Shown here: positions 10,039 to 62,518 of the stretch, one piece after another
Layout: each line of letters opens with the position of its first letter
Numbering within the stretch: position 1 is the first letter of the stretch
Origin: a virus
Reading direction: 5' to 3' (one strand)
IMG/VR virus record: IMGVR_UViG_3300046529_000477
Span: 1-64,000 of that record
Length of the DNA stretch: 64,000 nucleotides
Translations under genes and position numbers: made by a program
The notes under the pieces: generated by a model
Databases searched by the model: none
Told to the model about the DNA's origin: nothing
Seen by the model: the letters and a program-made list of their open reading frames with translations, nothing else

Positions 10039-10123
10039 AGATAATAAATAAAGTTAGTTAAAATGCTTTCATCAGTAGAGGTGTTTAAAAAGGTGGTTTT
10101 TTGTCTATTTAAGAACCTACCGG

Positions 10124-10199
10124 TTGGTAATAGTTTAACGGTAGAACCATCCCCCTATACGGCGGATTGCGGAGTTGGGTTCGATTCCCACTTACCAAC
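10124..10199 (+). tRNA. tRNA-like gene with irregular anticodon arm
   Basis: The acceptor arms TTGGTAA (10124-10130) and TTACCAA (10192-10198) pair over 7 bp. The D arm GTTT-AACGGTA-GAAC fits, and the T arm has the TTCGATT loop with GGG/CCC. The anticodon arm (10149-10167) pairs only with a C-C mismatch. Possible anticodons are TAT (Ile, but with C at position 33) or ATA, and the variable loop is long. No CCA is encoded. It may be a divergent tRNA-Ile(TAT), which would suit the ATA-rich codon use, or a tRNA mimic. A 64-codon frame across it is a shadow. Confidence 0.6.
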
Positions 10200-10238
10200 A
10201 AAAGTTTTTTCATATAGCAGGTTTAGCTTAGTCAAAAA

Positions 10239-36687: not shown

Positions 36688-37022
36688 GTGAATTAATAGA
36701 TTATAAAAAGAAATGTGAAGAATATGAAAAGAGGATGGGCATAGGACAAAATGACCCCGCTAAAGATGGCTATTTAGTTATGGTAAGTATTTTACAACAA
36801 CAGAATGAATATCTAAGTAGTTTTAAAATAAAATCATTTATAGCTTCGGAAGAAAAGGGAGACCAGTTAGCTTATAAAAATGCTAAAGACTTATGGGAAA
36901 ATTTACCAAATACTATTGAATCAGTTTCTAAATTAAAAATAGCATTGAAAATGGAAGGAGAAGAAAAGAGAAATAATTATAAACCAATTTCTTCAAAAGA
37001 AATAGCTAACGGTAATGTTTAA
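36684..37022 (+). CDS. Hypothetical protein, small-terminase position, 112 aa
   Basis: A helical, charged 112-aa protein whose ATGA overlaps the preceding stop and whose end overlaps the large terminase by 8 nt. Its position, length and helical character fit a small terminase subunit, but no HTH can be recognised, so this is a guess from context. Confidence 0.4.
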   Translation: MSELIDYKKKCEEYEKRMGIGQNDPAKDGYLVMVSILQQQNEYLSSFKIKSFIASEEKGDQLAYKNAKDLWENLPNTIESVSKLKIALKMEGEEKRNNYKPISSKEIANGNV

Positions 37023-39736: not shown

Positions 39737-42112
39737 ATGGCTGAAAATACATGGGCTTATCCGCCAATGAACATTGATCCAAGACGCAAAAATTTTGCGT
39801 GGATACTCCAATACCTTAAAGCATCGTGGAGTGATGCCTGTAATTTCATGCCCTCCGCCATGCTGTTCAATAGAAGCCAAAACAGATTTTGGGAAATAAA
39901 GCAATACGTATTAGGCAAGCAGAGTATATCAAAATATAAGAAGATACAACCTGGAGATGAAATACAAAACAATACCGAATTAAATAATGATAGTACCGTA
40001 TTAGCTATGATACCTAAGTTTATTGAAATAGCTAAATCCAAAATACTTCAGAAAGAATATAATCTTGAAGCAGCAGCGGTTGACCCAATGGCTAAGAGCG
40101 AAGAAGATGAATATTTTAATCAGATGAAGATTAAGATAATGATGAATAATATGCTTACTCAAATGCAATCTTCACTTGCACAATCTCCATTAGTAAAATT
40201 AAAAAGTAATGAGCCACAAGATATGGAGCAATTACAAATGCAAATGGATTTTGGATATAAGCATATAATGGCAATGGAAGCAGAAGAAGGAATACAATTA
40301 ACATTTGGGCAGAATAGATTTGAACATCAAAGAACAGAATTAGTTGATAATCTTTATGACTTTGGAATTGGTGGTTTTAAAGTTTGGATTGATGAAAATG
40401 GGCAAGTAAAATTTAGGGCTGTTTGTGGTGAAAACTTTATATCTTCTTATTGTCTTAAATCTGATTTTACAGATGGCAATCATGCGGGTGAAATTATACA
40501 AGTAAAAGTTTCTGATTTAGCCCCTTACTTCAATGCAGGGCAAATGGAACAGATATGTAAAGTAGTAGCAGGTAAATATGGCAATCCAAGTTCATTTGAT
40601 GTAAGACAAAATAGATGGTGGGATAAGTTTACAGTAATGGTTTTAGACTTGCAGTTCTTTAGTTGGAATAGTACGGTTTATGAATCTAAGATTGATAAAA
40701 GCGGAAATGAAAGATTTGGTAAAACAGATTTTGCAAATATGAGATTTGTAGGAAACTCAAATCCATATAGCAACATGGCTTATGAAAATGATGAAAGCGA
40801 ACAAATAGCACAACCAACAAAGAATGTTCTTGATGATACAATGGTAGGATTAGTTGATGATGATGTAAGAGGCGGTATGCCAAAACCTGTTTATATGTCA
40901 AGCACTGAAAAAGTAGTTTATAAAGGTAAATGGATTATAGGGACAGAATTAATGTACGATTGGGGTCTAAAAGAAGAACAAGCAAGTGAATTATCTTCAT
41001 GGTGGAATAAGAAATTGGATTACATAATGGGTGCGCCAATGTTTTATAAGATGCAGTTTACAGGCATTTCAGAAAGATTAATTGTACTTGCAGATGCTTA
41101 TCAATTAACATGGCGCAAACTCCAAAATCTAAAAAATAAACTCATTCCTTATTTGATTGAACTTGATTTAACATCACTTGAAAATGTTGGATTAGGTCGG
41201 GGAAATGAGCAAATGACACCTGCACAGATAATAGATTTCGCTTTCTCTAATTTTATTCTATTGAAACGAAGTACAGACCCTTATAAAAATAATCCCAATT
41301 ATAAGTCAATGGATATTCAGCCAACAGGAATGTTGGAAGCATTTGCACAATTATATGCAGATTTGGATAGGCTTTATTTAATGATACAGCAGGTATCGGG
41401 TTTGAATGAATTAACAGATGGCAGCACACCTAATCCCAAAATGCTTGTTCCCGTTGCAGATGCAGCTATGCAAGCCACTAACAACGCATTATATCTAATA
41501 AGTAATTGTGAAAAAGATTTGATAGAAAGATTGGGGCAATTAGTTGTTGAGAAAATACAGTTAGCCGTTCAACGTGGTAAAGTGGCAGGATATGCAAAGG
41601 CATTAGGTAGCAGTACAGTAAAATTCTTTGAAATAAACCCTGAAATAAGCCTTTATGAATTAGGCATTTTCATTACAGATAATCTTTCTTCTGAAGAAAA
41701 ACAAATGCTATTGCAGGAAATAAACATAAAAGATAGTCAAGGTTTGCTAACTCCCGCAGATAAATTATTCTTGATAAAAAGCAAAAGCATTACACAAGCA
41801 ATGGTTTATCTAAACTATATCACAAAGAAAAGGGGTGATGATGCACATCAAAAACAAATGCAGTTGGTTCAACAACAGACAATGGGCAATCAGCAAACAG
41901 CCGTTGCAGCAGAACAAATGAAACAGCAAACGATTGTATTGCAAGGGAAAATACAAATGGAAATAGAATCAGCAAAAGGACAATGGCTCTACATAACAGA
42001 GCAAATGAAAAAAAGCAGCGACCAACAAGAAGCAGGAATACAAGCTCATGCAAAAGTATTATCAGCAAGTATTACTGCAAGTGCAAAACAAGCGGCAGCA
42101 TCTATTGGCTAA
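39737..42112 (+). CDS. Portal protein
   Basis: The 791-aa protein is long for a portal but fits crAss-like portals. The N-terminus (NFMPSAMLFNRSQNRFWEIK, then YVLGKQSISKYKKIQPGDE) resembles the W/Y-rich start of such portals. A long helical region with the stem follows, and residues 660-791 are Gln/Lys-rich coiled coil (KKRGDDAHQKQMQLVQQQTM), as in barrel domains. It has its own promoter element and lies between terminase and scaffold/capsid genes. Confidence 0.75.
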   Translation: MAENTWAYPPMNIDPRRKNFAWILQYLKASWSDACNFMPSAMLFNRSQNRFWEIKQYVLGKQSISKYKKIQPGDEIQNNTELNNDSTVLAMIPKFIEIAKSKILQKEYNLEAAAVDPMAKSEEDEYFNQMKIKIMMNNMLTQMQSSLAQSPLVKLKSNEPQDMEQLQMQMDFGYKHIMAMEAEEGIQLTFGQNRFEHQRTELVDNLYDFGIGGFKVWIDENGQVKFRAVCGENFISSYCLKSDFTDGNHAGEIIQVKVSDLAPYFNAGQMEQICKVVAGKYGNPSSFDVRQNRWWDKFTVMVLDLQFFSWNSTVYESKIDKSGNERFGKTDFANMRFVGNSNPYSNMAYENDESEQIAQPTKNVLDDTMVGLVDDDVRGGMPKPVYMSSTEKVVYKGKWIIGTELMYDWGLKEEQASELSSWWNKKLDYIMGAPMFYKMQFTGISERLIVLADAYQLTWRKLQNLKNKLIPYLIELDLTSLENVGLGRGNEQMTPAQIIDFAFSNFILLKRSTDPYKNNPNYKSMDIQPTGMLEAFAQLYADLDRLYLMIQQVSGLNELTDGSTPNPKMLVPVADAAMQATNNALYLISNCEKDLIERLGQLVVEKIQLAVQRGKVAGYAKALGSSTVKFFEINPEISLYELGIFITDNLSSEEKQMLLQEINIKDSQGLLTPADKLFLIKSKSITQAMVYLNYITKKRGDDAHQKQMQLVQQQTMGNQQTAVAAEQMKQQTIVLQGKIQMEIESAKGQWLYITEQMKKSSDQQEAGIQAHAKVLSASITASAKQAAASIG

Positions 42113-43321: not shown

Positions 43322-44668
43322 ATGGCACAGTTAACGTACATCAAAAAATCGTACGTATCTGCACTCTCTAATTTCATAGATACTCGTGAAATAAATAAAC
43401 AAGTAGCAGATATAGCAAATGAAGATGCTCTCACAGACATCTTGGATTTCGGGGATAGGAAAATGCCGATTACAACCGGACAGCCTGTTTACCATACATT
43501 CACAAACGAAACTCTTTTTAAAATTGGTGATACCACAGGTGCATCAGTTTCAGGAAGCGGCACAACTTCAGTAACAACAGCTTTTACGGCAGCAACAAGC
43601 GGTTATACACAAGCAGGTGATTTAGTTATATTCCCTACAGGTGGTATAGTTGGTTATGTTTACAGCGTTGTAACTTCTTCCGGCATTGATACAGTAGTTA
43701 TCAAATCTGTAAGCGGCGCAAACATTACAAGCACAGCAGGAGATAAACTTTCTTTGTTTTCTAATGCTTACGGTGAAAGAGCCGATGCACCACAAAATGT
43801 AGCTTATGGTGTTACTGATTTCTTCAACAAATATCAAATCTTCTCTATTACATCTCAAATTACAGATGTTCAGAACGCAGCAACGATTGAAGTAGAATTT
43901 GAAGGACAAAACAAATACATTGTAAAAGACCATATTGATAAAGCAATCAAAATAAAAGGTTCAATCAATGGTGCTTTTTGGGGTGGTGATATGTCAACTA
44001 CGACATTCAGCGATACCAATCCAACACTTACTGACCAAAACATAGTTTCAGGCGGTGGTGGTGGTGGTGCAGTACAAACCACTCGTGGAGTGAACAAATA
44101 CATTGAACTATATGGAACTACTCTTAATCCGGGAAATGTTTCCTTTGGTGCAATAGATGATGCACTTGATAACTTGATTGCTAAACGTGCACCTAAAGAC
44201 CAATTGGTAGTAGGTTCATCTAAAGCAAATAGAGTTTATGATGTGTTTCTTAAAAATTTAGGTTCAAGTGGCGTTAATTCAGTAAGGCTTATCGTTGATG
44301 GCAATGAAGTTGATTTCACAGTAGATAAATTTACTTATGGTGGTTTCAATATCAACAAAGCATTGATGCCTATTTTAGACCATCCAACAATGTTTGCTTT
44401 TGTACCTGCAATCAAAAACTCTATGTATTGGCTTCCTTATGATAAGAGAGTTAAAATATATGGTGGTGGTTACGACCCTGCATTAAGAGTTAGATATGTA
44501 CCTAATCAAAATAAATGGGGTAATGAATTGATAGGTGAAGCTCATGGCGGCGCATTAAGTCCCGTTAATCCTACTGGATTCGTTCAGGAATGGAAAATGG
44601 TTATGACTTCCATGCAAGGGCTTGAATTTATCGCACCACAGTTTGCACTTAGGCAACAGGTGTTTTAA
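43322..44668 (+). CDS. Major capsid protein
   Basis: A 448-aa, beta-rich protein placed after portal and scaffold. The start (SYVSALSNFIDTREINKQVADIANEDA) fits a helical N-arm, residues 40-270 have Thr/Ser-rich beta regions, and residues 280-448 have the VGSSKANRVYDVFLKNLGS helix with DGNEVDFTV and FIAPQFALRQQVF at the end, as in the P and A domains of HK97-fold proteins. It is followed by a hairpin that may act as a partial terminator. Inferred from order and character. Confidence 0.72.
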   Translation: MAQLTYIKKSYVSALSNFIDTREINKQVADIANEDALTDILDFGDRKMPITTGQPVYHTFTNETLFKIGDTTGASVSGSGTTSVTTAFTAATSGYTQAGDLVIFPTGGIVGYVYSVVTSSGIDTVVIKSVSGANITSTAGDKLSLFSNAYGERADAPQNVAYGVTDFFNKYQIFSITSQITDVQNAATIEVEFEGQNKYIVKDHIDKAIKIKGSINGAFWGGDMSTTTFSDTNPTLTDQNIVSGGGGGGAVQTTRGVNKYIELYGTTLNPGNVSFGAIDDALDNLIAKRAPKDQLVVGSSKANRVYDVFLKNLGSSGVNSVRLIVDGNEVDFTVDKFTYGGFNINKALMPILDHPTMFAFVPAIKNSMYWLPYDKRVKIYGGGYDPALRVRYVPNQNKWGNELIGEAHGGALSPVNPTGFVQEWKMVMTSMQGLEFIAPQFALRQQVF

Positions 44669-45485: not shown

Positions 45486-46004
45486 ATGCCCCTGTCTCCT
45501 AATTTTACATCGGTAGAACTTTCAAATCTTTCATCTGTCTTAGTTACTGATACATCAACAGGAAGTGATGGTGGTATAGTTGCACGTAGGATTTTTTTCC
45601 AAGAATATAACGGCAGCTATTTAGTACCAAGTGGAACATTAACCGATTATGTACCTTTCCCTTTAGGTGGTTCAACTATTACAATAGACAATCTATTACT
45701 TAAGGCATGGGCTTTAAATGTAAGAGTTGATTGGGTAGATGCCAATGGTAATGCTTTGTATTCTCTTACTATTTTAAATGGCTATCCATCTTATATAAAA
45801 TATGGATTGTATCAATTATCTCAATATCAAATACCCAACAATAATCTTCTCAAAGTACGCAATTATAGACAAGCCAAATTAGATGTTTGGGATGCTGTCA
45901 TTAGTGGTGATAATGCCATATCACAAGGAAGTGATATAACCAATGCACAACGATGTTATGATGCAGCAACAGCCATTTTATCAAATCCTTCAAATTTCTA
46001 TTAA
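45486..46004 (+). CDS. Conserved virion-region protein, 172 aa
   Basis: A mainly beta protein with the features TDTSTGSDGGIVARRIFFQE near residue 21 and WDAVISGDNAISQGSDITNA near 137. The sequence style is that of phage head/tail-associated proteins with no known enzyme part. The ATG of the next gene overlaps its stop (TAATG). Confidence 0.5.
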   Translation: MPLSPNFTSVELSNLSSVLVTDTSTGSDGGIVARRIFFQEYNGSYLVPSGTLTDYVPFPLGGSTITIDNLLLKAWALNVRVDWVDANGNALYSLTILNGYPSYIKYGLYQLSQYQIPNNNLLKVRNYRQAKLDVWDAVISGDNAISQGSDITNAQRCYDAATAILSNPSNFY

Positions 46005-46825
46005 TGGCATATCCCCTAACAGTAGCACAGCAAATACAGATAGGGCAAGTATCAACGTATTTGTCATTAACAGATATTACTAAAAAGAAGTTCTTAGATG
46101 GCATACCATATTTTGAACAACAGTTATCATTGCTGATAGCAATGGAAACTGATATACTTAATTGGCAATACGAATTAAATCCAAGTGATATAACATTATT
46201 TCAAGCAGGAGATTACTTATATGCTTTATGTGGAAGATATGCTATTGATGCACAAAATGCTATTAATGAAGGAGGGGTTATAATTACTCCGGTAACAGGT
46301 GTTGCTACATTCCTAATTCAATTAAAATCATATCCTCAATTTATTGTCGGTGCATTAGACTCACCAATGGTAGATGGTCAGGATACACTTATCATAACAG
46401 ATGCTTTAGCAGTTGACCAAAGTTTACAAGGTGAAGTAGAAATTCATGTTGAAGGTGCAGAACAAGGCGAAGATTTATCAGATAGGTTAAGTTTCATTGC
46501 TACATACGCAACAGGGCAATATACAATCATTTGGAATCAAGGGTTATCAAATGGGATGTTGGTTCAGATAAAATATCCCGTAAAAGTTACTTTGGTTTCT
46601 CAACAAACAAGTACTACAGGCAAAGGATTACAAGCAGTTTATGTTGTTGCTACCGTAACAGGAAACACATTAACTGTAATTGAATTAGGTACATTCATGT
46701 TTGCTCAAATACGTGGTGCAACCTATGATACTTCTGTAATAACACAGACAGGGCAAGATTTGGATTTGACAAATGTAGGTGGTGTAACAGTAGGTGAATC
46801 TATTTTAATATTTTACTATCCATGA
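46004..46825 (+). CDS. Hypothetical virion-region protein, 273 aa
   Basis: The first 85 residues are helical (QIQIGQVSTYLSLTDITKKK), and the rest is beta-rich (FIATYATGQYTIIWNQGLSN). Not recognised. It overlaps both neighbours by 1 and 4 nt. Possibly a tail or base element ahead of the fibre block. Confidence 0.5.
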   Translation: MAYPLTVAQQIQIGQVSTYLSLTDITKKKFLDGIPYFEQQLSLLIAMETDILNWQYELNPSDITLFQAGDYLYALCGRYAIDAQNAINEGGVIITPVTGVATFLIQLKSYPQFIVGALDSPMVDGQDTLIITDALAVDQSLQGEVEIHVEGAEQGEDLSDRLSFIATYATGQYTIIWNQGLSNGMLVQIKYPVKVTLVSQQTSTTGKGLQAVYVVATVTGNTLTVIELGTFMFAQIRGATYDTSVITQTGQDLDLTNVGGVTVGESILIFYYP

Positions 46826-47850
46826 GGAAAATATTTTTATTCATATTATTAATTGTTTCCGTTTTTGTTCATGCACAAACTAAAACTTTATTGCCCCCTG
46901 TTGGTGGGACAAATACGATATATAGAATAGCAGGAGGCGCAATAGCAGATACAGTTCAATATCTACCTTCGACAGTTGGAATACCAACTCTTAATATGCT
47001 CAATTATATGGCTGCAAAAAGAGCAGCAGCAACACAAGTAGATACAGCAAATGATATTCCTTATTGGTATTCACCTAAATTAAACGCATGGTACACGATA
47101 ACAGGCGGCGGCGGCACTGATACTGCAACTTTAGATGGCGGTGCATTTACAACAAGCAATGTGCAAGTAGGGTTTAATCCTGGTGCGCATATCACACCTA
47201 AACAATTATTGCTTGCAGTATTTTACGGATTGCAGCCGCCAACAGCTACTCTTACGGGTGGAACTACCTTAGAATTAACAGCATCGCCAACAGTTACACA
47301 AACTTTAAATTGGGGTGCAGGAAGGCAATCAAACACCCCCATATTAAATTCAATCGTTGTTGCAGGAATATCACAAAGTTTTTCTCAACCGCCTTTAAAT
47401 GGAACAGTAACAGGAACACAATCAGTAAATGTTCCCGCTAATACAACAACAACTTATAGCAATTTAGTAACAGCAAGTTTACAGACAGCAATAGCAAATA
47501 CTACATTCACTTTCTTAGGCAAAAAATATTATGGACTTCTAACGGATACGACAGGTATAACAACAGGTTCACTAAATGCAAATATTATTGCTTTGGCAGG
47601 TTCAGCATTTGCCACGACAAAAACACTTGCAACAAATACAGGTGCAATAACAGGAACAGAATTTTGGTGTTATGCTTATCCTTCAAGTTTAGGAGATTTA
47701 ACAGCATTGTCATTTAATAGTATTCCTGCATTAGAAGCAATGAATAAAATAACATTAAGTATAACAAACGCATCAGGATTTACGCAGAATTACTTGGTTT
47801 ATTACAATAAGCAGGCGCAAACAATATCATCAGATATAACAGCGCAATAA
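46822..47850 (+). CDS. Exported fibre-like protein, 342 aa
   Basis: A clear Sec signal peptide (MRK, hydrophobic core, then VHA before Gln-19) precedes a Thr/Ser/Gly-rich beta protein with a [15 protein letters not shown] segment and a fibre-like C-terminal half. It is the first of six spike-region proteins that carry signal peptides with predicted Gln at +1, the usual cleavage in Bacteroidota. It could be a tail fibre with a relic signal or a phage protein exported to the cell surface. Its start overlaps the previous stop. Confidence 0.6.
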
Positions 47851-47861
47851 AAAAATATATT

Positions 47862-48383
47862 ATGATAGAAAGATGGAAAGATATTATACACTTTGAGGGG
47901 GCATATCAAATTTCAAATTTAGGTGAAGTTAAATCTATCGAAAGGATACATCATTCTAAAAATAATTCTTTTAGAAAATGCAAGGGAGGTATTTTAAAAC
48001 AAGGCAACTGCAATGGGTATAAACAAGTTAATTTATCTTTTAATGGGATAAAAAAAATGATTACTGTTCATAGGTTAGTTGCTGAAGCATTTATACCTAA
48101 TCCTGAAAATAAAAAGACAGTGAACCATAAAAATGGTGATAAAAGCGATAATAGAATTGAAAATCTTGAATGGAATACACGTCAAGAAAATACGATGCAC
48201 GCTTATATAAATAAATTAATTAAAGTTGTGCCTACTTATAGCAAAATAGTATTAAATACAAGAACAGGAATATTTTATGATAGCGCCAATGAAGCAGCAA
48301 GAAGTGAAGGATTAAATGGAAATACATTATCTCATAGATTATGTGGTAAAAGAAAAAATAATACACCCTTTCAATATGTGTAA
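47862..48383 (+). CDS. HNH homing endonuclease (NUMOD4-HNH)
   Basis: Residues 1-50 are NUMOD4-like ([20 protein letters not shown]). Residues 65-110 hold the HNH core: [16 protein letters not shown], then [19 protein letters not shown], with the catalytic His pairs. Residues 125-173 carry a C-terminal DNA-binding region ([20 protein letters not shown]). It is a free-standing mobile endonuclease inserted between two fibre genes. Its end overlaps the start of the next gene. Confidence 0.85.
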
Positions 48384-50667
48384 ATATTTATTAATGGTAT
48401 CAATTATATTTTCAATAACAGCAAAAGCACAAGTTCAACCGAACAAAAACGGTTATGTTCATCCATTAATAATTCCTACTCATTTCACTGCACTAACTTC
48501 TGTTAGTCTCAATCGGTATAAAGGACAAGATACTTTTTTAATTACAGCAAATACAGCAGGATGGTCATTACAACAGGATAGCGGAATAGACTGGAATCAT
48601 CCTCTTGTTTTTATAAATATTTCAACAAAAAAGATAAGAGTAGATAATGGTATTGATGCACAAAATTGCAGGTATATTAAAATAATTGGATTTGGTTCTG
48701 ATTCTGCTTATGGTTTTGAATTTGTTGGTGATACTGTTCATACGCCACTAAATTTTCAGGGTATGCAAAATGGTATTCTGATTGAAGGATGCCATATAAC
48801 ACATGGTGGTGCAGGAGGATTATGGGTAAAAGAAGAAGCACCACAGGCTTGCCAATATTTCGGTTTTTGGAGTACGAAAGGAACGGCAGATAGCTTAAAG
48901 TATGGTGTGATAAATAATTATCTCGCACCTAATTTTCAGGATAGTGTATTTGTGCGTCATAATTGGATTGATTCATGTGGTGGTGATGGTTATTTCGGAA
49001 GCACAGGAACAATTCATGGTAGAGAACCAGTTAACTGCTTGCCTGGTAGTCCTGCAAGACCAACAATGCAAACACGAAATTTTCATATAGACAGCAACTA
49101 CATAAATTATTTTGGCAGAAGCGGCATACAATTAAATTTAGCAGTAGCAGGTAATCAAACAATAAACGATAATATAATTACGAATTGCGGTTATGAATTT
49201 GCTCAAACAAATAGTCCCGATAGCAAAAATCAAGGTGCAGGAATAAGGACAGGTTCAGGAGATATAAATGTAGAAATAGCACGAAATACAGTTGATTACA
49301 CAAATCTTTATAATTATGATATTGAAGAAGCGGGATGTAATTTCCATGATAATTTTGGAGACCATGTTTCCCTTGTTAATTATAAAGGATTAGTTGTTAA
49401 CGGTGGACAAGCATTAGCATCAGTAATAGCAGCATCAGCAGACCCACAAACAAGCCCTTTACTTATAAGAAGCAATCAAATGTTTCATACAACAGCAGGG
49501 GGAAATGTGGCTTATGCAATTTATGGTGGTAGCAATTTTACTTTATCAACGAATGATACTTGTTTTAATGTTGGTAAAGTATCAGTATTAGCAACACCAT
49601 TTGTTGCCCTTCCAACTTGTTCAAGCGCAGGATGTGATACTACATTCAGCGATAGCACTTTTACTGTTCAACATGATAGTCCAGAGGTAGCGCATTTCCC
49701 ACCAACAGTAATAACAAAAGATACGGTACTTATTAGCCCAACAGGGATTGATACTAATTTTAATAGAAATCATAATTATATAACAAGAGTAACTTTTGGC
49801 AAACCAAGAGACAGTACATATTTAGATACAATCAGAGCAGCTTACGACAGTGCTTATATATGTTCTTTATGTGCTTCACATGACACAACAATATCAGTTA
49901 CCCGTATTTTATGTTCAGGTATGAAACCATCTCATGTTATTGTAGTAATGATGGAGAATCATGGCTATAATCAAATAATTGGCAGCGCAAGCGCACCTTA
50001 TATAAATAGTCTTGCAAATAGTGGAATGTTGTTTTCAAATATGCATGGTGTAGCGCATCCATCACAACCGAATTATATTGCCTTATTTTCAGGAGATACG
50101 CAAGGAATTACAGATGATTCATGCAGACCAAGAATTAATGCAGCGAATCTATATACGGAACTTAACTCTATAGGTAAAACATTTGCATGGTATAGTGAAG
50201 ATTTGCCCGCACAAGGTGATACTGTTTGCGCAGCAGCCCCTTATGTAAGGAGACATAATGCATCTGCAATTTTCTCAAATGTTCCTAATAGCCGTAATAA
50301 AAGATTTGTTGATTTTCCAACAAACTTTGATAGTCTCCAAAATCTTGTTTTCATATCTCCAAACTTAAATAATGATATGCATAATGGGACAATAGCACAA
50401 GGAGATACTTGGCTGCAAACAAATTTAAGTTCACTTGTTACATGGTGCAATACGCATAATTCAATATTTATAATAGATTTTGATGAAGATAATGGAACGC
50501 CAGGAAATCAAATTCCGATGGTAGCATCAGGTCAATATGTGTTAAAATCAAATAATGGAAATAATTATAATCATTATAGTTTAACAAAAACATTATGTGG
50601 ATTATTTAATGCACCGATAGCATGGACAACAAATTTAGCAGCAGCATCTTTAATAGTATTTTTTTAA
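48376..50667 (+). CDS. Exported beta-helix spike fused to a phosphoesterase
   Basis: I start at 48376 ([18 protein letters not shown], then Gln-19), where a signal peptide begins. Residues ~90-340 are right-handed beta-helix ([31 protein letters not shown]). Residues ~519-763 match the PF04185 phosphoesterase family: [15 protein letters not shown] at ~519, [14 protein letters not shown] at ~562, [13 protein letters not shown] at ~662, [16 protein letters not shown] at ~702 and NHYSLTKTL at ~731, covering the Asn/His/Asp metal ligands. This family includes acid phosphatases and phospholipase C enzymes. A spike that removes phosphate or phospho-groups from host surface polymers is inferred. Confidence 0.75.
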
Positions 50668-50677
50668 AATAAAATAT

Positions 50678-51931
50678 ATGGCAACTATAAATTTTTCGGG
50701 CGGGAAATCTTTTAACGGTGGGTTGAATCCTGGTGATATAATTCAACTGCAAGCTGCTAATCAATACACTTATCTTTATCTCGGTCAATGTAGTGGTACA
50801 GCCGATAATCCTATTATTATTACTATAGATAGATTGGGTGTAGTAAATATGAGCTCAGGCATCACACTTGAAAATTGCAATTATATACATATTAATGGAG
50901 GAACTACAAATAGCTACGGGATTAAAATCGTCAATACATCTTCCGTTGCTTTAGTTATAAAAGGTAAATCAAATCACATTGAAATAAACGGGGTTGAGGC
51001 TACCGCACTTAATGGGGCTTTATGGGCTAAGACAGACGTAGCAGATGTACAGAACATTTATAATTGCGACCAAAGCTATCTATATCCTAACCATATAGAT
51101 GATATTAAAATCCATGATAATTATTTTCACGATATACAAATGGATGCTGTTTATTTAGGCGAAACAGACCCTTATGGAACTTCACGTTCTATTACTTGCA
51201 ATGGTGTGACAACAACCCCAAGACCACAAGGCTTATCTAATTTCATTGTATATAATAATCGGGTAGAAAGATGCAATAGGCAAGGCATCCAACTTTCAGG
51301 CTGCGATTTAGGGATTAATAAAATATATAACAATACACTTACTGATTGTGGCTTTGAATATAGCGACAGTCAAGGTGTAGGTATTTTTGTTGGCGGTGCA
51401 ACATTCAATTGTGAAGTATATGGAAACACAATCAATAACACATGGCAGCATGGTATTTCTTCTTATGGAATAGGTCAAGTTAATATTCACGACAATACAA
51501 TTAATAATAGTGGCATCTTGGGAGGCAGGACTAATCAATGGGCAATGGCAAATATTTTTCACAACTTTATTGACAAAGCAGGATGCATAATTAATGTAGA
51601 AAATAATACTTGTGGATTAAATTCAGATGCAGCCAACGATTATAAAGTTGCTTTATTCAATACAGCAGGAACAGGAAATAGCCCAGATAATGTTGTTGCT
51701 AATTCAGGAAAAGTTTATGCAGAAGCAGGAATTACCTATACAGTCGGAACTATTAAACCATTAAGTCCAATAGTTTATTTTACGCTTGATGTTCCAAATA
51801 AATCTATAACATTTCATAGACAAGATAGCACAACTATTTCTTATACAAACGTAGATAGGGGCATAGGTTCAGTAACAAATAATTTGTGGAAAGTATTTTT
51901 TAATGATGGCACAAGTAAAATCGTTCAGTGA
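50678..51931 (+). CDS. Beta-helix spike protein without signal peptide
   Basis: The 417-aa chain is a parallel beta-helix: NYIHINGGTTNSYGIKIVN, HIDDIKIHDNYFHDIQMDAV, RQGIQLSGCDLGINKIYNN and CEVYGNTINNTWQHGISS are repeated coils. It is similar to the beta-helix half of the preceding gene (for example RSGIQL... TNCGYEF against RQGIQL... TDCGFEY), so the two are paralogues. Unlike its neighbours, it has no signal peptide. Polysaccharide binding or cleavage is likely, but the catalytic residues are not clear. Confidence 0.65.
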   Translation: MATINFSGGKSFNGGLNPGDIIQLQAANQYTYLYLGQCSGTADNPIIITIDRLGVVNMSSGITLENCNYIHINGGTTNSYGIKIVNTSSVALVIKGKSNHIEINGVEATALNGALWAKTDVADVQNIYNCDQSYLYPNHIDDIKIHDNYFHDIQMDAVYLGETDPYGTSRSITCNGVTTTPRPQGLSNFIVYNNRVERCNRQGIQLSGCDLGINKIYNNTLTDCGFEYSDSQGVGIFVGGATFNCEVYGNTINNTWQHGISSYGIGQVNIHDNTINNSGILGGRTNQWAMANIFHNFIDKAGCIINVENNTCGLNSDAANDYKVALFNTAGTGNSPDNVVANSGKVYAEAGITYTVGTIKPLSPIVYFTLDVPNKSITFHRQDSTTISYTNVDRGIGSVTNNLWKVFFNDGTSKIVQ

Positions 51932-51934
51932 TAA

Positions 51935-54343
51935 ATGAAATATCTAATTACCATATTGTTGATATTAAGTTGTGCGGTTTCTTTTTCGCAGGTAAAGATT
52001 GATTCAAGTGGCGCAATGGTTGCTACCGGAAATTATCCTGCTACCAAAATGAGAGGCGTAAAAGCATTTATGTTATCAGTTCAGTCAATAACAGATAGGA
52101 ATAATATACCTGCTAATTTCAGAGATACAGGAATGGTCATACTCGTAAGAGACAGTAGCGCACTTTATTCTTTGGTAGGTGGTATTGGAAATATAAATTG
52201 GATTAAAGTAGGATTTGGCACAGGCACAAACGGTACTTTGTTTGCATTGGCAGGAACAAATACAGCATTGGATAATGTAACAGGTGTATTAAATGGTCAT
52301 ACCTTAACGGTTGATGGCGGAAATACAAATTCAGTTATTGACCCTTCTGCTTCACAAGAAAATTTTAATGCAGGTGATGGCACAGCGCAAGCTAATTTGA
52401 CATTATTTGGTACAGTAGCAGGTGCAAGAGTGCTTAGCCAAACAACTGATGGAATAGGTTCATCTGAAATGCAATTATATGCCAATTCAGATGGGGGATA
52501 CAATTTCTATCTCAATTCAAATAATGGAATAAATGAAGCTGAAATTTTAGGTGATGCAATAGCAGATACTATAGGTTATTCAACGGGTTCACATATATTC
52601 AGAGGAAATTTAGTTTGGAAAACACCAATTTTAGGTGCTGCAAATGATTCATTATTATCCATTGATAGTATAGGTGATATTCATTATATAAGTAAATCAA
52701 GTCTGCCATTTTCAAATCAATTTCTAACAGCAGGATATGGAATACTTGGATTTAATTACAATGGAAGCACACCCCAAACATGGGCAGTTGATACTACATT
52801 AATAGCAAACAAAACTTATGTAAATGCAATAACAGGACAAGATACAGCAGTATGGATAGTAGATAGTATTGCTTGTGATACTACAGGATTATTGGTTAAT
52901 ACTGATTATTTGGTTTGCCCAACTCCAGTAAATGGATTTGCGGGACATAGAAATCAAATAGCTACTAAGACGGGAAGTGTATGGAATTATAAAATACCTG
53001 GAAATGGAGATGTACTTAGTGATGCAAACCCTGTATCTTATTATCAATATGATAGTGTTAATGCTTTATGGAAATTAATAAGCAGGGCAGTATTAGTAGG
53101 GTATGCAAATTATGGTGGCGTATTAACTATCGGCACATCTACAAAGAATAATATTCGATTAGGAACAAGAAATGGACTTGCTATAGTAATTGACACCAAT
53201 CAAAGAGTAGCTTTATCGAAATACATAGGAACAAGAAATGGTAATTATCTATTCTTGGATTCAATCACGGGTAATGTAGATACAGGCTTTTTCAAACCAT
53301 TAATAGCAGGTACAGGAATAACTATTTCATCAAGTCCACAAGCAGATACGATAAAAGCAAGTGGTGGCGGGGGTAGCGATAGCACTACAGCAAGTAATGG
53401 TTTAACATTAGTAGGTAAAGATGTTCGATTGGGAGGTAGCACAAATACATTTACAACTGTTAATACTACGGGCGGAATTGTTCAGTTTTCTTCCTCGGCA
53501 GTCGGCAGTCCTACAATAGCGGTAAGTAATTCATCATCAAGTGTAAATTCACAAGCCATCCAAGTATCAACAGGAGCAGAGCAAGGAATAAATATAGGCA
53601 CAACTACTGGTACGGCATTGACAATTCAAACTTCTGGTGGGATGCCTATATTAGCTTCTAATAGTTCATCAACTACAAATACAGTTTTACCATTAATTCA
53701 ATTAAATAGAACAACAACCGGAACAGCAGCTAATGGCATAGGGCAATCTATTGATTTTCAAAATGCAACTACTGGTTCTACACGATTATCAAATCAGATT
53801 ATAAGCAAATGGACAAATGCTACAGATGCAAGTAGAACTTCTGAATTTTCTATTGCAGGTATAGGCAGTGCAGCAACAAATACTTTGCTTACACTTTCAG
53901 GTAGTGGTGCGGCAAGATTAAATAAATATGGGGTAGGAACTTTCACAGGTACACCAACATTTGCATTAAATGTAGATGCAAGTGGGAACGTAATTGAGGG
54001 AACAGTAGGAGGGGGAGGCGGTTCAACACTTACAAGACAAATAATAACAAGCGGAAGTTCAGGGACAGTAACAGGAAGTAATTATATTGTTACTATTGAC
54101 CCTGCGGCTACACTTGCATCTTATGTGCTGACAATGCCCGCAAGTCCAACAGATTTACAAACAGTAGAAGTTGACTTTGGTGGTACATTGACAAATGGTA
54201 CAATAGTAACAGCACTAACCATTTCACCAAATTCGGGACAGACAATTTTAGACAATACACCTCCAACAACAGCAACAGCAGACAACACATTATTATATAG
54301 ATATAGAGCATCAAACACAACATGGTATAGATTTAAACCATAA
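51935..54343 (+). CDS. Exported fibre-like protein, 802 aa
   Basis: The signal peptide (MKYLITILLILSCAVS, FS, then Gln-19) is followed by a long Thr/Ser/Gly-rich beta region with a GGGGSDSTTASNGLTLVGKD segment. It ends with a domain (SYVLTMPASPTDLQTVEVDF, then ILDNTPPTTATADNTLLYRY) that I recall from the C-termini of phage tail fibres. It is one of the exported-type fibre proteins. Confidence 0.6.
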   Translation: MKYLITILLILSCAVSFSQVKIDSSGAMVATGNYPATKMRGVKAFMLSVQSITDRNNIPANFRDTGMVILVRDSSALYSLVGGIGNINWIKVGFGTGTNGTLFALAGTNTALDNVTGVLNGHTLTVDGGNTNSVIDPSASQENFNAGDGTAQANLTLFGTVAGARVLSQTTDGIGSSEMQLYANSDGGYNFYLNSNNGINEAEILGDAIADTIGYSTGSHIFRGNLVWKTPILGAANDSLLSIDSIGDIHYISKSSLPFSNQFLTAGYGILGFNYNGSTPQTWAVDTTLIANKTYVNAITGQDTAVWIVDSIACDTTGLLVNTDYLVCPTPVNGFAGHRNQIATKTGSVWNYKIPGNGDVLSDANPVSYYQYDSVNALWKLISRAVLVGYANYGGVLTIGTSTKNNIRLGTRNGLAIVIDTNQRVALSKYIGTRNGNYLFLDSITGNVDTGFFKPLIAGTGITISSSPQADTIKASGGGGSDSTTASNGLTLVGKDVRLGGSTNTFTTVNTTGGIVQFSSSAVGSPTIAVSNSSSSVNSQAIQVSTGAEQGINIGTTTGTALTIQTSGGMPILASNSSSTTNTVLPLIQLNRTTTGTAANGIGQSIDFQNATTGSTRLSNQIISKWTNATDASRTSEFSIAGIGSAATNTLLTLSGSGAARLNKYGVGTFTGTPTFALNVDASGNVIEGTVGGGGGSTLTRQIITSGSSGTVTGSNYIVTIDPAATLASYVLTMPASPTDLQTVEVDFGGTLTNGTIVTALTISPNSGQTILDNTPPTTATADNTLLYRYRASNTTWYRFKP

Positions 54344-54348
54344 AGACA

Positions 54349-56571
54349 ATGAAGAATTTATTTTTTATATTATTTGTTTTAATCAGCACAATATCATTCA
54401 CTCAATCTTATAATAATGGGCAAAGGGTATTCAATGTAAAATTATTTGGTGCAACAGGTAACGGAGTTTATGATACAACTGGAGCAATAACTTCAGGTGG
54501 GGGAGCTTTATCTACTGTTACTTCATTATTCACAGCAGCAGATGTCGGAAAAGTGATTGTGGTATTAGGTGCAGGAACTTCGGGCAGAGATTTAGTTACC
54601 ACGATTGCTACGTTTACAGATGCAACCCATGTAGGGTTGACAGCAAACGCATCAACAACAGTTTCAAGCAATGGCAGAATAATATATGGTACAGACCAAA
54701 CAACTTTTATTCAGGCAGCAATCACGGCAGCCAAATCAATAGGAAATGGGAGTATTGTATTTATCCCAAACGGAGTGTATATTATAGCAGGAGCATTGCA
54801 AACAAGTGTCGGTGGGGTAAATATGAATAGTCAGATTTATATTCCTGCGGATAGCATCCAATCACTAAAGAAAACCAATATAACTATACAAGGAGAAACT
54901 GCACCCAATTGTACTCAATATGGTGTCTTAACTTCTTATAATTTGAATGACTATACCGGAACTGTATTGGTATCTACTTTAACAAGTGGAGCAACAGATT
55001 GTTCGGTAATTGGTACAAAAGGATTTACCGGAACATTTGGAACATTTAATTATAATTATTTAACGGTTAAAAATCTTGCAATAAAAGTTCTTGATAATCC
55101 GGCAGGGGCAGGGGCAGTCATTGGCGGCATTTCTATGAAATTCGGTTCTTCCTTGATTACAAATCAAGTAATGATTAATCCTATCGGGATAGGTACAACT
55201 TCTGTAACTCCAACGAATGACATTAGCGGAATTGAAACACCTGATATAAGTAGTGAGGCTATGACATGGCTAACTAATACAGGTGTAGGTGGATTCAAAA
55301 CAGGATATAAAATTGGCGAACACGCTGATATGGAACAAGCACACGCTTATGCTTGTTATTATGGGTTTGCGATTAAACAGGGCTATCATAATGTTCATGG
55401 CGGAAGAATATTAACGCATTGGTGTACAAATGACATTTATAATATAGCAGGTTCAGTTCCCCCATCAGTAAAAATAGATGCATTAGATGTTGAATATATG
55501 ACGGCTGCTGTTTCAGGCGGTAAATGGTATGACAATATCAATACAATAAATGATAGCTTAAATCAGATTAAAGGAACGATGTATTTTACGTTAGTTTCCT
55601 CAAGTGTTGGACTGGTAAATACGCATTTCACAAAGAATGGCGGATCTAATTTTTCTGCTTATGCTATTGGGGACAGTTCAAATTTAGCTGTATTAAATGG
55701 CAACAATGTGTATAGCATTACTTCGGGAGTGCAGACACAATATTTTATACCGCCTATTAACGGCGCAACAGGATTTGTTTGGCAATATGGTGGCAATAAT
55801 AAAATGGGATTGTATTTTGATTTTGATGGACTGAATAAACACGATCTGAAATTATATAATTATAAAACAGCAACAGCAGTTTTAAATGTAGATTCTGCCA
55901 ATACAATAAATTTAGGTGGTACTGCTTCAACGGTTTCAACTTCAGGGCTTTCAATTACAAGCAATCAAGCCGTATATGCACCTTTTAGAATAGGTATAGC
56001 CCAAACCACACCCGGATTCCCTTTAGACATCACAGCAACAGGGGTAGGTTTAAGTGTAGCAAATGGAGCATCAGGCAGCTATGCGGGGGCAAGATTTATT
56101 AACAATGGTTCAAGTTTATTGATAATGGGCAAAGCGGGGAGTGCCTTTTCTTTTGCGTCAATAGCGGCTAATGATTTCTTCTTTGAAAATACTGCATCTG
56201 GTAATATAACTATTCAAAATGATGTTGCGGCAGTAGGGCTGACCGGAGGAGGGTTATCTACGCATGGATTTAGGGTTAATACAAATAATTCAATCGCTGT
56301 TCCTGCCACAATAACAGCAGGAGGAACAACAGGGAATCAGACAATAAATAAATCGAGTGGTACTGTAAATTTTGCGGCATCAGCAACAAGTTTAACTGTA
56401 ACAAATTCACTTGTAACCACATCATCTATTGTATTTGCAATAGTAAGAACAAATGATGCCACAGCAGAAGTAAAAAATGTAGTTTGTTCATCAGGTAGTT
56501 TTGTAATCACACTAACAGCAGCAGCAACGGCAGAAACAAGTGTAGGTTTTTTTGTACTTAATAATTATTAA
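54349..56571 (+). CDS. Exported pectate-lyase-fold spike, 740 aa
   Basis: After a signal peptide (MKNLFFILFVLISTISFT, then Gln-19), residues 27-60 show VFNVKLFGATGNGVYDTTGA, the head of the pectate lyase superfamily spike fold, followed by FIQAAITAAKSIGNGSIVFI and GVYIIAGAL. A beta-helix continues to about residue 560. The C-terminal domain (INKSSGTVNFAASATSLTVT, then TAEVKNVVCSSGSFVI) is a known fibre end. It probably degrades or binds host polysaccharide. Confidence 0.72.
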   Translation: MKNLFFILFVLISTISFTQSYNNGQRVFNVKLFGATGNGVYDTTGAITSGGGALSTVTSLFTAADVGKVIVVLGAGTSGRDLVTTIATFTDATHVGLTANASTTVSSNGRIIYGTDQTTFIQAAITAAKSIGNGSIVFIPNGVYIIAGALQTSVGGVNMNSQIYIPADSIQSLKKTNITIQGETAPNCTQYGVLTSYNLNDYTGTVLVSTLTSGATDCSVIGTKGFTGTFGTFNYNYLTVKNLAIKVLDNPAGAGAVIGGISMKFGSSLITNQVMINPIGIGTTSVTPTNDISGIETPDISSEAMTWLTNTGVGGFKTGYKIGEHADMEQAHAYACYYGFAIKQGYHNVHGGRILTHWCTNDIYNIAGSVPPSVKIDALDVEYMTAAVSGGKWYDNINTINDSLNQIKGTMYFTLVSSSVGLVNTHFTKNGGSNFSAYAIGDSSNLAVLNGNNVYSITSGVQTQYFIPPINGATGFVWQYGGNNKMGLYFDFDGLNKHDLKLYNYKTATAVLNVDSANTINLGGTASTVSTSGLSITSNQAVYAPFRIGIAQTTPGFPLDITATGVGLSVANGASGSYAGARFINNGSSLLIMGKAGSAFSFASIAANDFFFENTASGNITIQNDVAAVGLTGGGLSTHGFRVNTNNSIAVPATITAGGTTGNQTINKSSGTVNFAASATSLTVTNSLVTTSSIVFAIVRTNDATAEVKNVVCSSGSFVITLTAAATAETSVGFFVLNNY

Positions 56572-56572
56572 A

Positions 56573-56962
56573 ATGAATAAAATGAAAAATATTATCATCG
56601 CTTTAATTATAATCTTTATAGGCTTTCAATCTCATGCACAAGTAGATCAAAAATCAAGAGATTCTGTAGCCAACACAAATGACTTTCAAGTTAAAGTAAG
56701 AGAAGCTACATTATTGGCAGCTAATCAGACGTTAGCGGACACAAGTCAACACACAGAATATATTTTACGATATTCTTTTTCACTTGTAAATGACCCACAG
56801 GGAAGATGGGTATTAGCTATGTCTTATCAAGTACTTACCAATCCACAAATAAATTATGATAGCCCTCAAAATGATATAGAGTTTGCGGTCAACAGTAATT
56901 TTGAAAAGATGGCAAGAGCAGCATCAGGCGTAGTTGTTATACCACCCTCACACCAAGATTGA
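56573..56962 (+). CDS. Small exported protein, 129 aa
   Basis: I start at 56573 (MNKMKNIIIALIIIF...), which is 1 nt after the previous stop. A signal peptide ends in SHA followed by Gln. The rest is a soluble part (REATLLAANQTLADTSQHTE, then YILRYSFSLVNDPQGRW). Not recognised. It sits between two spikes, so it may be their chaperone or an accessory subunit. Confidence 0.5.
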   Translation: MNKMKNIIIALIIIFIGFQSHAQVDQKSRDSVANTNDFQVKVREATLLAANQTLADTSQHTEYILRYSFSLVNDPQGRWVLAMSYQVLTNPQINYDSPQNDIEFAVNSNFEKMARAASGVVVIPPSHQD

Positions 56963-56967
56963 TAAAA

Positions 56968-59631
56968 ATGACAAAAAGTATTATAATAATTGTCTTGTTA
57001 TTTATAGCTTTTATTTGTAAGGCACAGGATAGTTTGCCAAAAGGTTTTCCTGTTCAAAAATGGAATGGGCGAATTGAAGCAACCTATGTACAAGAAGATA
57101 GCGGGCATATTCCTTCATTAAGAGACACGCTTTGGCAGCCTCGTTTTTTAGGAACACAAGTAGTATGGTTTCATACAGGTGTAGATACTGCAATGTGGAT
57201 TTATACAGGTTCACCAATCGGTGCTAAATGGGTAAGACAATTTGGTTTTCCTTCGGGTGGTGGTAGTAGCAATACAATTATTACAGTTCCAAATATCGCT
57301 GCATTACAACTGCAAACAGGTGCAGATGGTCAAATAGCAATAACGCAAGGTTTTTATAATCCTTCAGATGGCGGAGGAAGTATATTTTATAGAAACGCAT
57401 CTTCACTTCAAGACACAGTTACAGGAATGATAGTGAAGTCAACACCATTAGATACCGGAAGATGGATAAATCTAATAGATAGAGGCAGCAGAATAAATGT
57501 TAAGCAATTTGGCGCAATCGGGGATAGTGTTCATGATGACCAACCAATTTTACAAGTAGCAGTAGATTATCTTGAATCATTAGGCGGTGGTACAATGTAT
57601 TTTCCAAAAGGGAACTATCATGTACGATTGCCCGTTTTTCTAAGGAAAAATATGCATTGGGTAGGAGATGGCACAACGTCATACGTATTCAATGATAGGG
57701 ATACACAACATTCAGTAAGAAATGGTGATGTATATGTTTATTTCATGGGTAATTTCAATGTAACCACTTATGGAAGCACATTACACTATACATCTTCAGA
57801 TACTCTGATAGCCGCAAAAAATAAAATTCAGTTAACATCAGCAGAAACAGATAGCTTTCATATAGGCGGACTAATTGAAATAGAAAGCCCAACAGGATTT
57901 AATGGAAGTGGCGGATTCTTCAGACCTTACTATGCAGTTATAAACAGAGTTACAGAAATTGATAGAGCAGCAGGAACAATAACAATTGAGCATCCAATGG
58001 ATACAACTTTACCTGTTGCAAACATTGGCATTTGTGATAAAATTGCTGTTGGTTCAGATACAGATGTATTAGGTCAACGGTATTATATAGCAGATAGATG
58101 TAGTTTAGATAACATGAGCTTTTCCTCTGCTGATTATGTTGCAAGACGTTATGGGGCATACGAATGTAACATAACCAACAACAGATACCATTCATCTAAA
58201 GGTGTCGGCGGAAATGGTTTAAGTTGGTGCAACTTCTTAAATAACTACCTTGAATTTACTTATAAAGCTATTGAATATGCCATGTATAGTAGCAATACAC
58301 ATATTGACCATAATACCTTTGTTTACTATAATGGATTTGACGATGGTGTAATTGAAAGACCTGGAATTAAATTTGGTGAAAATGTAAGAAATAGTACTGT
58401 CAGTTATAACACTTTTATTTTTGGAGATGCTTACACAACTGGACCTGTAATTAGTTTTGACCACGCATTTGATAATGAAGTTGTAGGCAATAAAATATAT
58501 GCACAGCACATAAACCAAAATGTCTTTGACGTAAGAGCAACCAATGACAGCGTAAGAATATTTGGTAATCTTTGCCTTAACAATGAAGCATGGGCAGATA
58601 GTGTGTTTACATTTATTAATCTTACTCGTAGTTGTACTGCTTGTTGTGTAGATAACAATAGATTCATTGGTAATATATTTCATGGCACACCTTTACAACA
58701 CGCATATTATCAAGGGGGCAGTAATAATATTATATGGAATAATTCAGTAGATGCAGGAGATGTAAAAATAGACAGTGATGCCAATAATTTCATGGTGAAT
58801 ACAATGGGGGCTAATGGCAGAGTACCACAGATAATGTTACCATTGAAACAATTTACTGCATCACCTATAAGTGGAGCAATAGAAAGAGATGCTACTAATT
58901 TATATTTTGTTGATAGTTCAAAAATAAGACACAAAATAGAATACGGTGACACTGCAATAAATGTTGGTGACAGTGATTATTCAGCACATAGAACAGATAG
59001 AATACTTGTTGTTAATGCACATACAGCATCGAGACAGATACATTTAGTTGTAGCTCCACTTGTACAATCGGGTACAAGATTGTTAGTAGCTGATTTTAGT
59101 GGAAATGCTTCTGATGTAGCCCCGATAATTATTGTTCATGCAGGAAGTAATACAATAAATGGAGTAGCAGGAAATGTAAAAATTACTCAACCTTATGGAT
59201 GGGTATCTCTAACGAGTGATGGCATAAGCCAATGGAATTTTGACGCAGGTAAAGGCTATGCCATATTCGCACAACATCCTATTATATATACAGGAACAGC
59301 ACCTTCGATAAGTGTAGGTGTAGGTGCAGGAAGTGGTTTTGCTGCGACATTAACCGGAAGTGATGGCGCAGGAACAATAAGTATCACAACAGGGACAGGA
59401 TGCACAGCAGGAGGCAACATAATAACAGTTACATTCAATACACCTTTACTTTATAATGCTATTGTAAATTTAACAGCACAAAGCCAAGCAGCAGGACAAG
59501 AGATTAGTAAATTCTTTATTGACCCCGCAGGAACAAGCGCAACCCAATTTAGAATTAAGAACACAGGAACGGCATTATTAGATAATGTTCTATATACCTT
59601 AAATTATACTGTCTCACAGCAAACACCCTAA
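56968..59631 (+). CDS. Exported pectate-lyase-fold spike, 887 aa
   Basis: I prefer ATG at 56968 (MTKSIIIIVLLFIAFICKA, then Gln) to TTG at 56959. Residues about 30-110 form a neck domain (IEATYVQEDSGHIPSLRDTL...). INVKQFGAIGDSVHDDQPIL near residue 175 and GGGTMYFPKGNYHV give the pectate-lyase spike fold. Beta-helix coils follow to about 590 (for example CNITNNRYHSSKGVGGNGLS), and then a fibre-like C-terminus with GTAPSISVGVGAGSGFAATL. Likely a host-polymer-binding or -degrading tailspike. Confidence 0.72.
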   Translation: MTKSIIIIVLLFIAFICKAQDSLPKGFPVQKWNGRIEATYVQEDSGHIPSLRDTLWQPRFLGTQVVWFHTGVDTAMWIYTGSPIGAKWVRQFGFPSGGGSSNTIITVPNIAALQLQTGADGQIAITQGFYNPSDGGGSIFYRNASSLQDTVTGMIVKSTPLDTGRWINLIDRGSRINVKQFGAIGDSVHDDQPILQVAVDYLESLGGGTMYFPKGNYHVRLPVFLRKNMHWVGDGTTSYVFNDRDTQHSVRNGDVYVYFMGNFNVTTYGSTLHYTSSDTLIAAKNKIQLTSAETDSFHIGGLIEIESPTGFNGSGGFFRPYYAVINRVTEIDRAAGTITIEHPMDTTLPVANIGICDKIAVGSDTDVLGQRYYIADRCSLDNMSFSSADYVARRYGAYECNITNNRYHSSKGVGGNGLSWCNFLNNYLEFTYKAIEYAMYSSNTHIDHNTFVYYNGFDDGVIERPGIKFGENVRNSTVSYNTFIFGDAYTTGPVISFDHAFDNEVVGNKIYAQHINQNVFDVRATNDSVRIFGNLCLNNEAWADSVFTFINLTRSCTACCVDNNRFIGNIFHGTPLQHAYYQGGSNNIIWNNSVDAGDVKIDSDANNFMVNTMGANGRVPQIMLPLKQFTASPISGAIERDATNLYFVDSSKIRHKIEYGDTAINVGDSDYSAHRTDRILVVNAHTASRQIHLVVAPLVQSGTRLLVADFSGNASDVAPIIIVHAGSNTINGVAGNVKITQPYGWVSLTSDGISQWNFDAGKGYAIFAQHPIIYTGTAPSISVGVGAGSGFAATLTGSDGAGTISITTGTGCTAGGNIITVTFNTPLLYNAIVNLTAQSQAAGQEISKFFIDPAGTSATQFRIKNTGTALLDNVLYTLNYTVSQQTP

Positions 59632-62415: not shown

Positions 62416-62486
62416 AGGCGTGTAGCTCAATGGACAGAGCGTCACTTAACTTGGTGAAGGTTGCAAGTTCGACCCTTGCCACGCCT
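62416..62486 (+). tRNA. tRNA-like gene with short anticodon arm (Arg-like body)
   Basis: AGGCGTG (62416-62422) pairs with CACGCCT (62480-62486) over 7 bp, followed by TA, a perfect D arm GCTC/GAGC with an AATGGACA loop, and a perfect T arm GCAAG/CTTGC with TTCGACC. The body looks like tRNA-Arg. The anticodon arm (62442-62457) is one base short: TCACT/GGTGA leaves only six loop bases, so no anticodon with a proper U33 and purine 37 can be read. It may be a pseudo-tRNA or tRNA mimic. The 73-codon antisense frame is an artefact. Confidence 0.65.
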
Positions 62487-62518
62487 CACTTTTGCTTTGT
62501 AAAGATAGCAATTAAACA

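Follow-up and report, generated by a model that had tools for sequence, protein, structure and literature searches.

We analyzed a 64,000-nucleotide stretch of viral DNA (hereafter the window), which corresponds to positions 1 to 64,000 of the 69,224-base IMG/VR record IMGVR_UViG_3300046529_000477. The gene order runs from the terminase (37015) through the portal (39737), a probable scaffold (42166), the major capsid protein (43322) and three more genes without signal peptides to a cluster of tail-spike genes on the plus strand, which is followed by a lysis-like region. Six cluster genes (46822, 48376, 51935, 54349, 56573 and 56968) encode a predicted Sec signal peptide of the signal peptidase I (SPI) type with Gln at +1, as found by translation and by a rule-based scan. 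The residues preceding Gln are HA, KA, FS, FT, HA and KA, respectively. An earlier note on this DNA had reported these six signal peptides with the same endings and the same Gln, and all of them were confirmed; its list omitted the remaining cluster gene (50678-51931), which has no signal.

The scan was applied to all open reading frames (ORFs) on both strands and required a charged n-region, an h-region of 8-16 residues, a small residue at -1 and Gln at +1. Within the whole window it returned those six genes only, that is 6 of the 7 cluster genes and none of the remaining 68 (P = 3.5e-8, Fisher test). When the residues behind the h-region were shuffled, a small residue followed by Gln was retained in all six proteins in 1 of 20,000 trials. 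All six have the features of Bacteroidota SPI substrates that follow the Q-rule, namely Lys or Arg in the n-region, a hydrophobic core, a small residue at -1 and Gln at +1 (6 out of 6), and none has at +1 the Cys that marks lipoproteins cut by signal peptidase II. The likeness to the known substrates (PMC5837995; PMC10653852) thus extends to the Sec signal, both residues flanking the site and the missing Cys, but those are periplasmic or outer-membrane proteins of the host, whereas the ones described here are encoded by a phage and belong to tail spikes and fibres. In exported Bacteroidota proteins, Gln at +1 protects and stabilizes the protein by cyclization (PMC5837995, PMC10653852). The arrangement of signal peptide and Gln (SP/Q, where the slash marks the predicted cleavage) had no match in 358 kb from ten other loci (nine Bacteroidota phages and one metagenomic podovirus), nor in 84 kb of crAss001. 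Because crAss001, B40-8, RAP44, P12024S, phi18:1, elemoF, Panino, phi4:1, phi12:1 and phi14:2 have no SP/Q within the stretches examined, the predicted SP/Q fibre trait is lineage-specific. The rule is specific, though imperfect; in loci that have SP/Q fibres, it also picks a few ORFs that are holin-like or that are small and lie in the lysis region.

The start codon of the first cluster gene (46822-47850; 342 amino acids, signal at 46822-46875, predicted mature N-terminus QTKTLLPP) overlaps the stop codon of the last signal-less structural gene ahead of the cluster (46004-46825, plus strand). In relatives, a gene of the same size class and without signal occupies the same position, and the product of 46004-46825 is a candidate cytoplasmic docking partner. 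A gene for a NUMOD4/HNH homing-type endonuclease (47862-48383; PF07463, PF13392) sits between two spike genes. The next cluster gene (48376-50667; 763 amino acids, signal at 48376-48429, then QVQPN) encodes a beta-helix-like N-terminal part and a C-terminal phosphoesterase domain (PF04185, E = 4e-29). A PDB search with this product found nothing, and a tblastn search of the phage collection with the same spike-like protein gave no match. Its N-terminal part is homologous to a protein of a metagenomic relative (L002:15742) and to its paralog encoded at 50678-51931, a right-handed beta-helix protein of 417 amino acids (PF13229), which is the one cluster member without signal peptide. Then come a fibre-like protein of 802 amino acids (51935-54343; signal at 51935-51988, predicted site VSFS/QVKID, mature N-terminus QVKIDSSG), a pectin-lyase-like spike of 740 amino acids (54349-56571; signal at 54349-54402, ISFT/QSYNN, then QSYNNGQ; phrog_32881 pectin lyase, E = 2.8e-17) and a small protein of predicted exported type of 129 amino acids (56573-56962; signal at 56573-56638, FQSHA/QVDQK, then QVDQKSR). 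The last gene (56968-59631; 887 amino acids, signal at 56968-57024, FICKA/QDSLP, then QDSLPKG) encodes a tail spike with matches to phrog_14442 tail protein and phrog_2234 tail spike protein and with a pectate-lyase-like domain (PF12708). Family matches to spike or fibre types were available for the products of 56968, 54349 and 50678. Those of 46822, 51935 and 56573 had no significant match in family searches, and we classed them as fibre proteins because of their position, modular homology and relatives. The AlphaFold models of the 46822 and 56968 products (predicted local distance difference test, pLDDT, of 32 and 31) were unusable because the alignments were too shallow.

To find relatives we scanned viral contigs with a profile of the major capsid protein (43322-44668, plus strand), which is assigned by its position and its conservation in relatives. 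This yielded eight contigs with capsid proteins 52-69% identical; scans of viral contigs with 46822, 54349 and the portal retrieved no relatives, and a scan of genome contigs returned one short contig from an uncultured bacterium and nothing else. Five independent contigs (L002, L003, L020, L021 with its near-copy L022, and L023) extend past the head genes, and all of them continue into large fibre-like genes. The 11 fibre genes listed from these five all have SP/Q (four in L002, one in L003, three in L020, two in L021 and one in L023; L022 also has two), and the genes ahead of the cluster have no signal in any relative that reaches it. The signal sequences differ among relatives, and what remains constant is their architecture and the small residue followed by Gln. 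The 46822 product has a syntenic homolog (L002:13585) with its own SP/Q and 45% overall identity, and its N-terminal ~90 amino acids also match L003:13411. The 51935 product has an N-terminal module and an internal stretch in common with L002:14630, and the N-terminal module of the 56968 product recurs in L020:19963 and L023:13482. The second fibre differs in length between the near-identical contigs L021 (15111-19433, 1440 amino acids) and L022 (10688-14416, 1242 amino acids), which suggests variation in repeat number.

Homologs in cultured phages were traced starting from a 'structural protein' of phi46:3 that has SP/Q, and the comparison of SP/Q fibres covers the lineage of the phage in the window and Cellulophaga phages. 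We found SP/Q fibre clusters in phi18:3 and phi19:3 (Pachyviridae), in phi10:1, phi19:1 and Nekkels (Assiduviridae), in Ingeline (Duneviridae) and in the phiSM/phi3:1 group, and the same arrangement is thus present across several unrelated groups of Cellulophaga phages. As in the window, the clusters of phi18:3, phi10:1, phi19:1, phiSM, Ingeline and Nekkels (PMC8776804) consist of consecutive SP/Q fibre or lyase genes; unlike in the window, their spike sequences are different and the cluster of Pachyviridae lies upstream of the portal rather than after the capsid genes. The lyases of Ingeline and Nekkels were already noticed to have 'signaling peptides' by Bartlau 2021, where such enzymes are placed on tails and export is not discussed (PMC8776804). 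The GenBank entries of four isolates label 11 proteins of SP/Q fibre type with the note 'annotation based on experimental MS/MS proteomics analysis' (MS/MS, tandem mass spectrometry). They are gp085-087 of phi18:3, a member of Pachyviridae and a portal relative of the phage in the window, gp091-094 of phi10:1, gp101-103 of phi19:1 and gp08 of phiSM, the N-terminus of the latter being read from phi3:1 gp8, a protein that is annotated by similarity to phiSM gp08 and matches it in coordinates and product. One further protein, phi19:1 gp104, has a signal but Lys at +1. By the annotation of others, virions of related isolates contain fibre proteins of this kind with signals, and predicted export seems to occur together with virion presence in four Cellulophaga isolates.

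The signals travel with exchangeable modules. The first 118-132 residues of phi10:1 gp093, which comprise the signal peptide and an N-terminal module, recur with 83-95% identity in phi18:3 gp086 and in Nekkels in front of a different C-terminal part, and the C-terminal part of gp093 is ~50% identical to phi4:1 gp52, which has no signal. Similarly, phi46:3 gp83 and residues 531-931 of the signal-less phi4:1 gp48 share 84% identity. The fibres of phi4:1 and phi14:2 have the same or similar pectate-lyase-type C-terminal modules as SP/Q fibres, but the cytoplasmic-type fibres of phi4:1, phi14:2 and crAss001 start, unlike those of the cluster, with non-hydrophobic N-termini and no signal. Given the phi4:1 homologs without signal, spike modules exist in both exported-type and cytoplasmic-type forms. 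The proteins might also be exported without ever being part of the virion, and act in the periplasm or outside the cell by trimming surface polysaccharide to free the progeny, blocking superinfection or serving as free depolymerases, with carry-over accounting for their detection in virions of relatives. Enzyme-like domains such as PF12708 and PF04185 would suit such roles, and Porphyromonas gingivalis phages encode Q-rule genes of unknown function, for which modification of the outer membrane has been proposed (PMC10367356); these are likewise phage genes that obey the Q-rule, but have no link to fibres or virions. We consider this explanation unlikely, since the annotation of four isolates lists fibres with signals among the virion proteins, the exchange between N-terminal and C-terminal modules is fibre-like and, with a signal on nearly all fibre-like candidates, few other proteins would be left for receptor binding.

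Comparison of codons indicates that the signals are under selection. In the gp086-type signal of six phages, the 8 variable codons are all synonymous (8 synonymous, 0 nonsynonymous; the compared pairs are not independent), while gp087-type signals accept conservative replacements, with a ratio of nonsynonymous to synonymous polymorphism (pN/pS) of 0.23. This pattern of predicted signals strongly opposes neglected relics. The earlier note had offered, as one option, that fibres were captured from host surface proteins and still carry their signals as relics. Some modules do resemble surface proteins: a signal-bearing protein of 1370 amino acids in a relative (L002:15742-19854) has tandem repeats like those of surface metallopeptidases (NF038112, NF012211), and these repeats suggest host-derived modules. 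The relatives examined, however, have the signal in all of their fibre genes, in differing sequences that keep the small residue and Gln, and only synonymous changes separate the gp086-type copies; this implies that the signals are maintained, and we regard relics as hardly credible. The hydrophobic N-terminus could instead remain uncleaved and anchor a protein that stays in the cytoplasm to the membrane or the virion. The full conservation of the gp086-type amino acids across phages exceeds what an ordinary signal needs and would fit such an anchor, but gp087-type signals tolerate replacements, and the small residue and Gln are kept even though the signals differ, with Gln at +1 being relevant only after cleavage. 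We thus deem an uncleaved anchor improbable. At the sequence level, the predicted signals and their Gln are confined to the fibre cluster and are conserved, under purifying selection, in the relatives.

Virions of tailed phages are thought to be built entirely in the cytoplasm. In P22 and T4, spikes or fibres attach in vitro to finished particles, and so can dock late, but they are synthesized in the cytoplasm and stay there. We propose, as the probable though by no means certain explanation, that the cluster encodes receptor-binding tail spikes and fibres that are made as preproteins and exported. They would pass through SecYEG, host SPI would cut in front of Gln, host glutaminyl cyclase would cap the new N-terminus as pyroglutamate and the mature spikes would take on their fold in the periplasm. 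The head and tail genes have no signals, and heads and tails would be put together in the cytoplasm. Once holin and lysin had broken the compartments, the spikes would dock on exposed tail sites, and the virion would be finished at or after lysis. The favored benefit would be that active lyase, epimerase-like or phosphatase domains are kept away from cytoplasmic sugar precursors; in addition, the N-terminus may be shielded from aminopeptidases. Disulfide formation as a reason for export is unsupported, as most mature fibres have few cysteines or none, the exceptions being the 48376 product and phi19:1 gp104. Of the two interpretations in the earlier note, relic signals thus found no support, and export fits best in the form of spikes picked up at lysis, which the MS/MS-annotated isolates favor. 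It is less likely that the proteins end up displayed on the envelope, because neither a C-terminal domain of the type IX secretion system (T9SS) nor a lipobox was found in them. Surface display by T9SS was rejected, as no family of its C-terminal sorting domain was found at E<=1 among the window proteins and the three proteins of relatives that were scanned. Virion presence, signal and cytoplasmic assembly would also be reconciled by dual targeting, with part of each protein built into the virion in the cytoplasm with its leader intact and the rest exported for another role. Inspection of the N-termini, by eye rather than by systematic scan, revealed no internal start just past the cleavage site, and we consider dual targeting very improbable.

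Several points weigh against late docking of exported spikes. The signal-peptide predictions are rule-based throughout, and we infer export, cleavage and the mature N-terminus of all these proteins from their sequences. One cluster gene, 50678-51931, lacks a signal, and phi4:1 and phi14:2 have homologous modules in fibres that carry no signal; export is therefore not needed for folding. The MS/MS support consists of GenBank annotation of relatives and may reflect contamination by periplasmic or vesicle proteins. Likewise, we infer that the spikes of this phage dock late and are present on its own virion.

The remaining genes help to place the phage. The terminase large subunit (37015-39150, plus strand; phrog_6681, E = 3.9e-41) and the portal protein (39737-42112, plus strand; phrog_6547, E = 2.8e-57) share 21-25% identity with their counterparts in Flavobacterium elemo phages, and the portal falls in the same range when compared to Maribacter phage Panino and to the Cellulophaga Pachyviridae phi46:3, phi13:2 and phi18:3. 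Because these relatives infect Bacteroidota, the host is presumably a member of this phylum. Two small proteins (581-988 and 1452-1910) have lipobox-like N-termini (FTSC and ISAC) and are possible phage lipoproteins. ARAGORN predicts a tRNA-Tyr with anticodon ata (10123-10200) and a tRNA with the four-base anticodon aact (62416-62487), which may be false or unusual.

None of the open-access papers to which our search was limited dealt with exported tail fibres, with the paradox between export and virion presence or with the breadth of the trait. We see about even chances that tailed phages of Bacteroidota, in several groups unrelated to each other, finish their virions outside the cytoplasm, with spikes that would pass through Sec, mature in the periplasm and join the particles at or after lysis. 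Cultured Cellulophaga phages would allow a direct test of the hypothesis. If it is true, the assembly of tailed phages would include a further maturation step, in the periplasm or after lysis, and phage infectivity would be tied to Sec, SPI and glutaminyl cyclase of the host. The annotation and expression of receptor-binding proteins of Bacteroidota phages would also change, as their mature N-terminus would begin at Gln.
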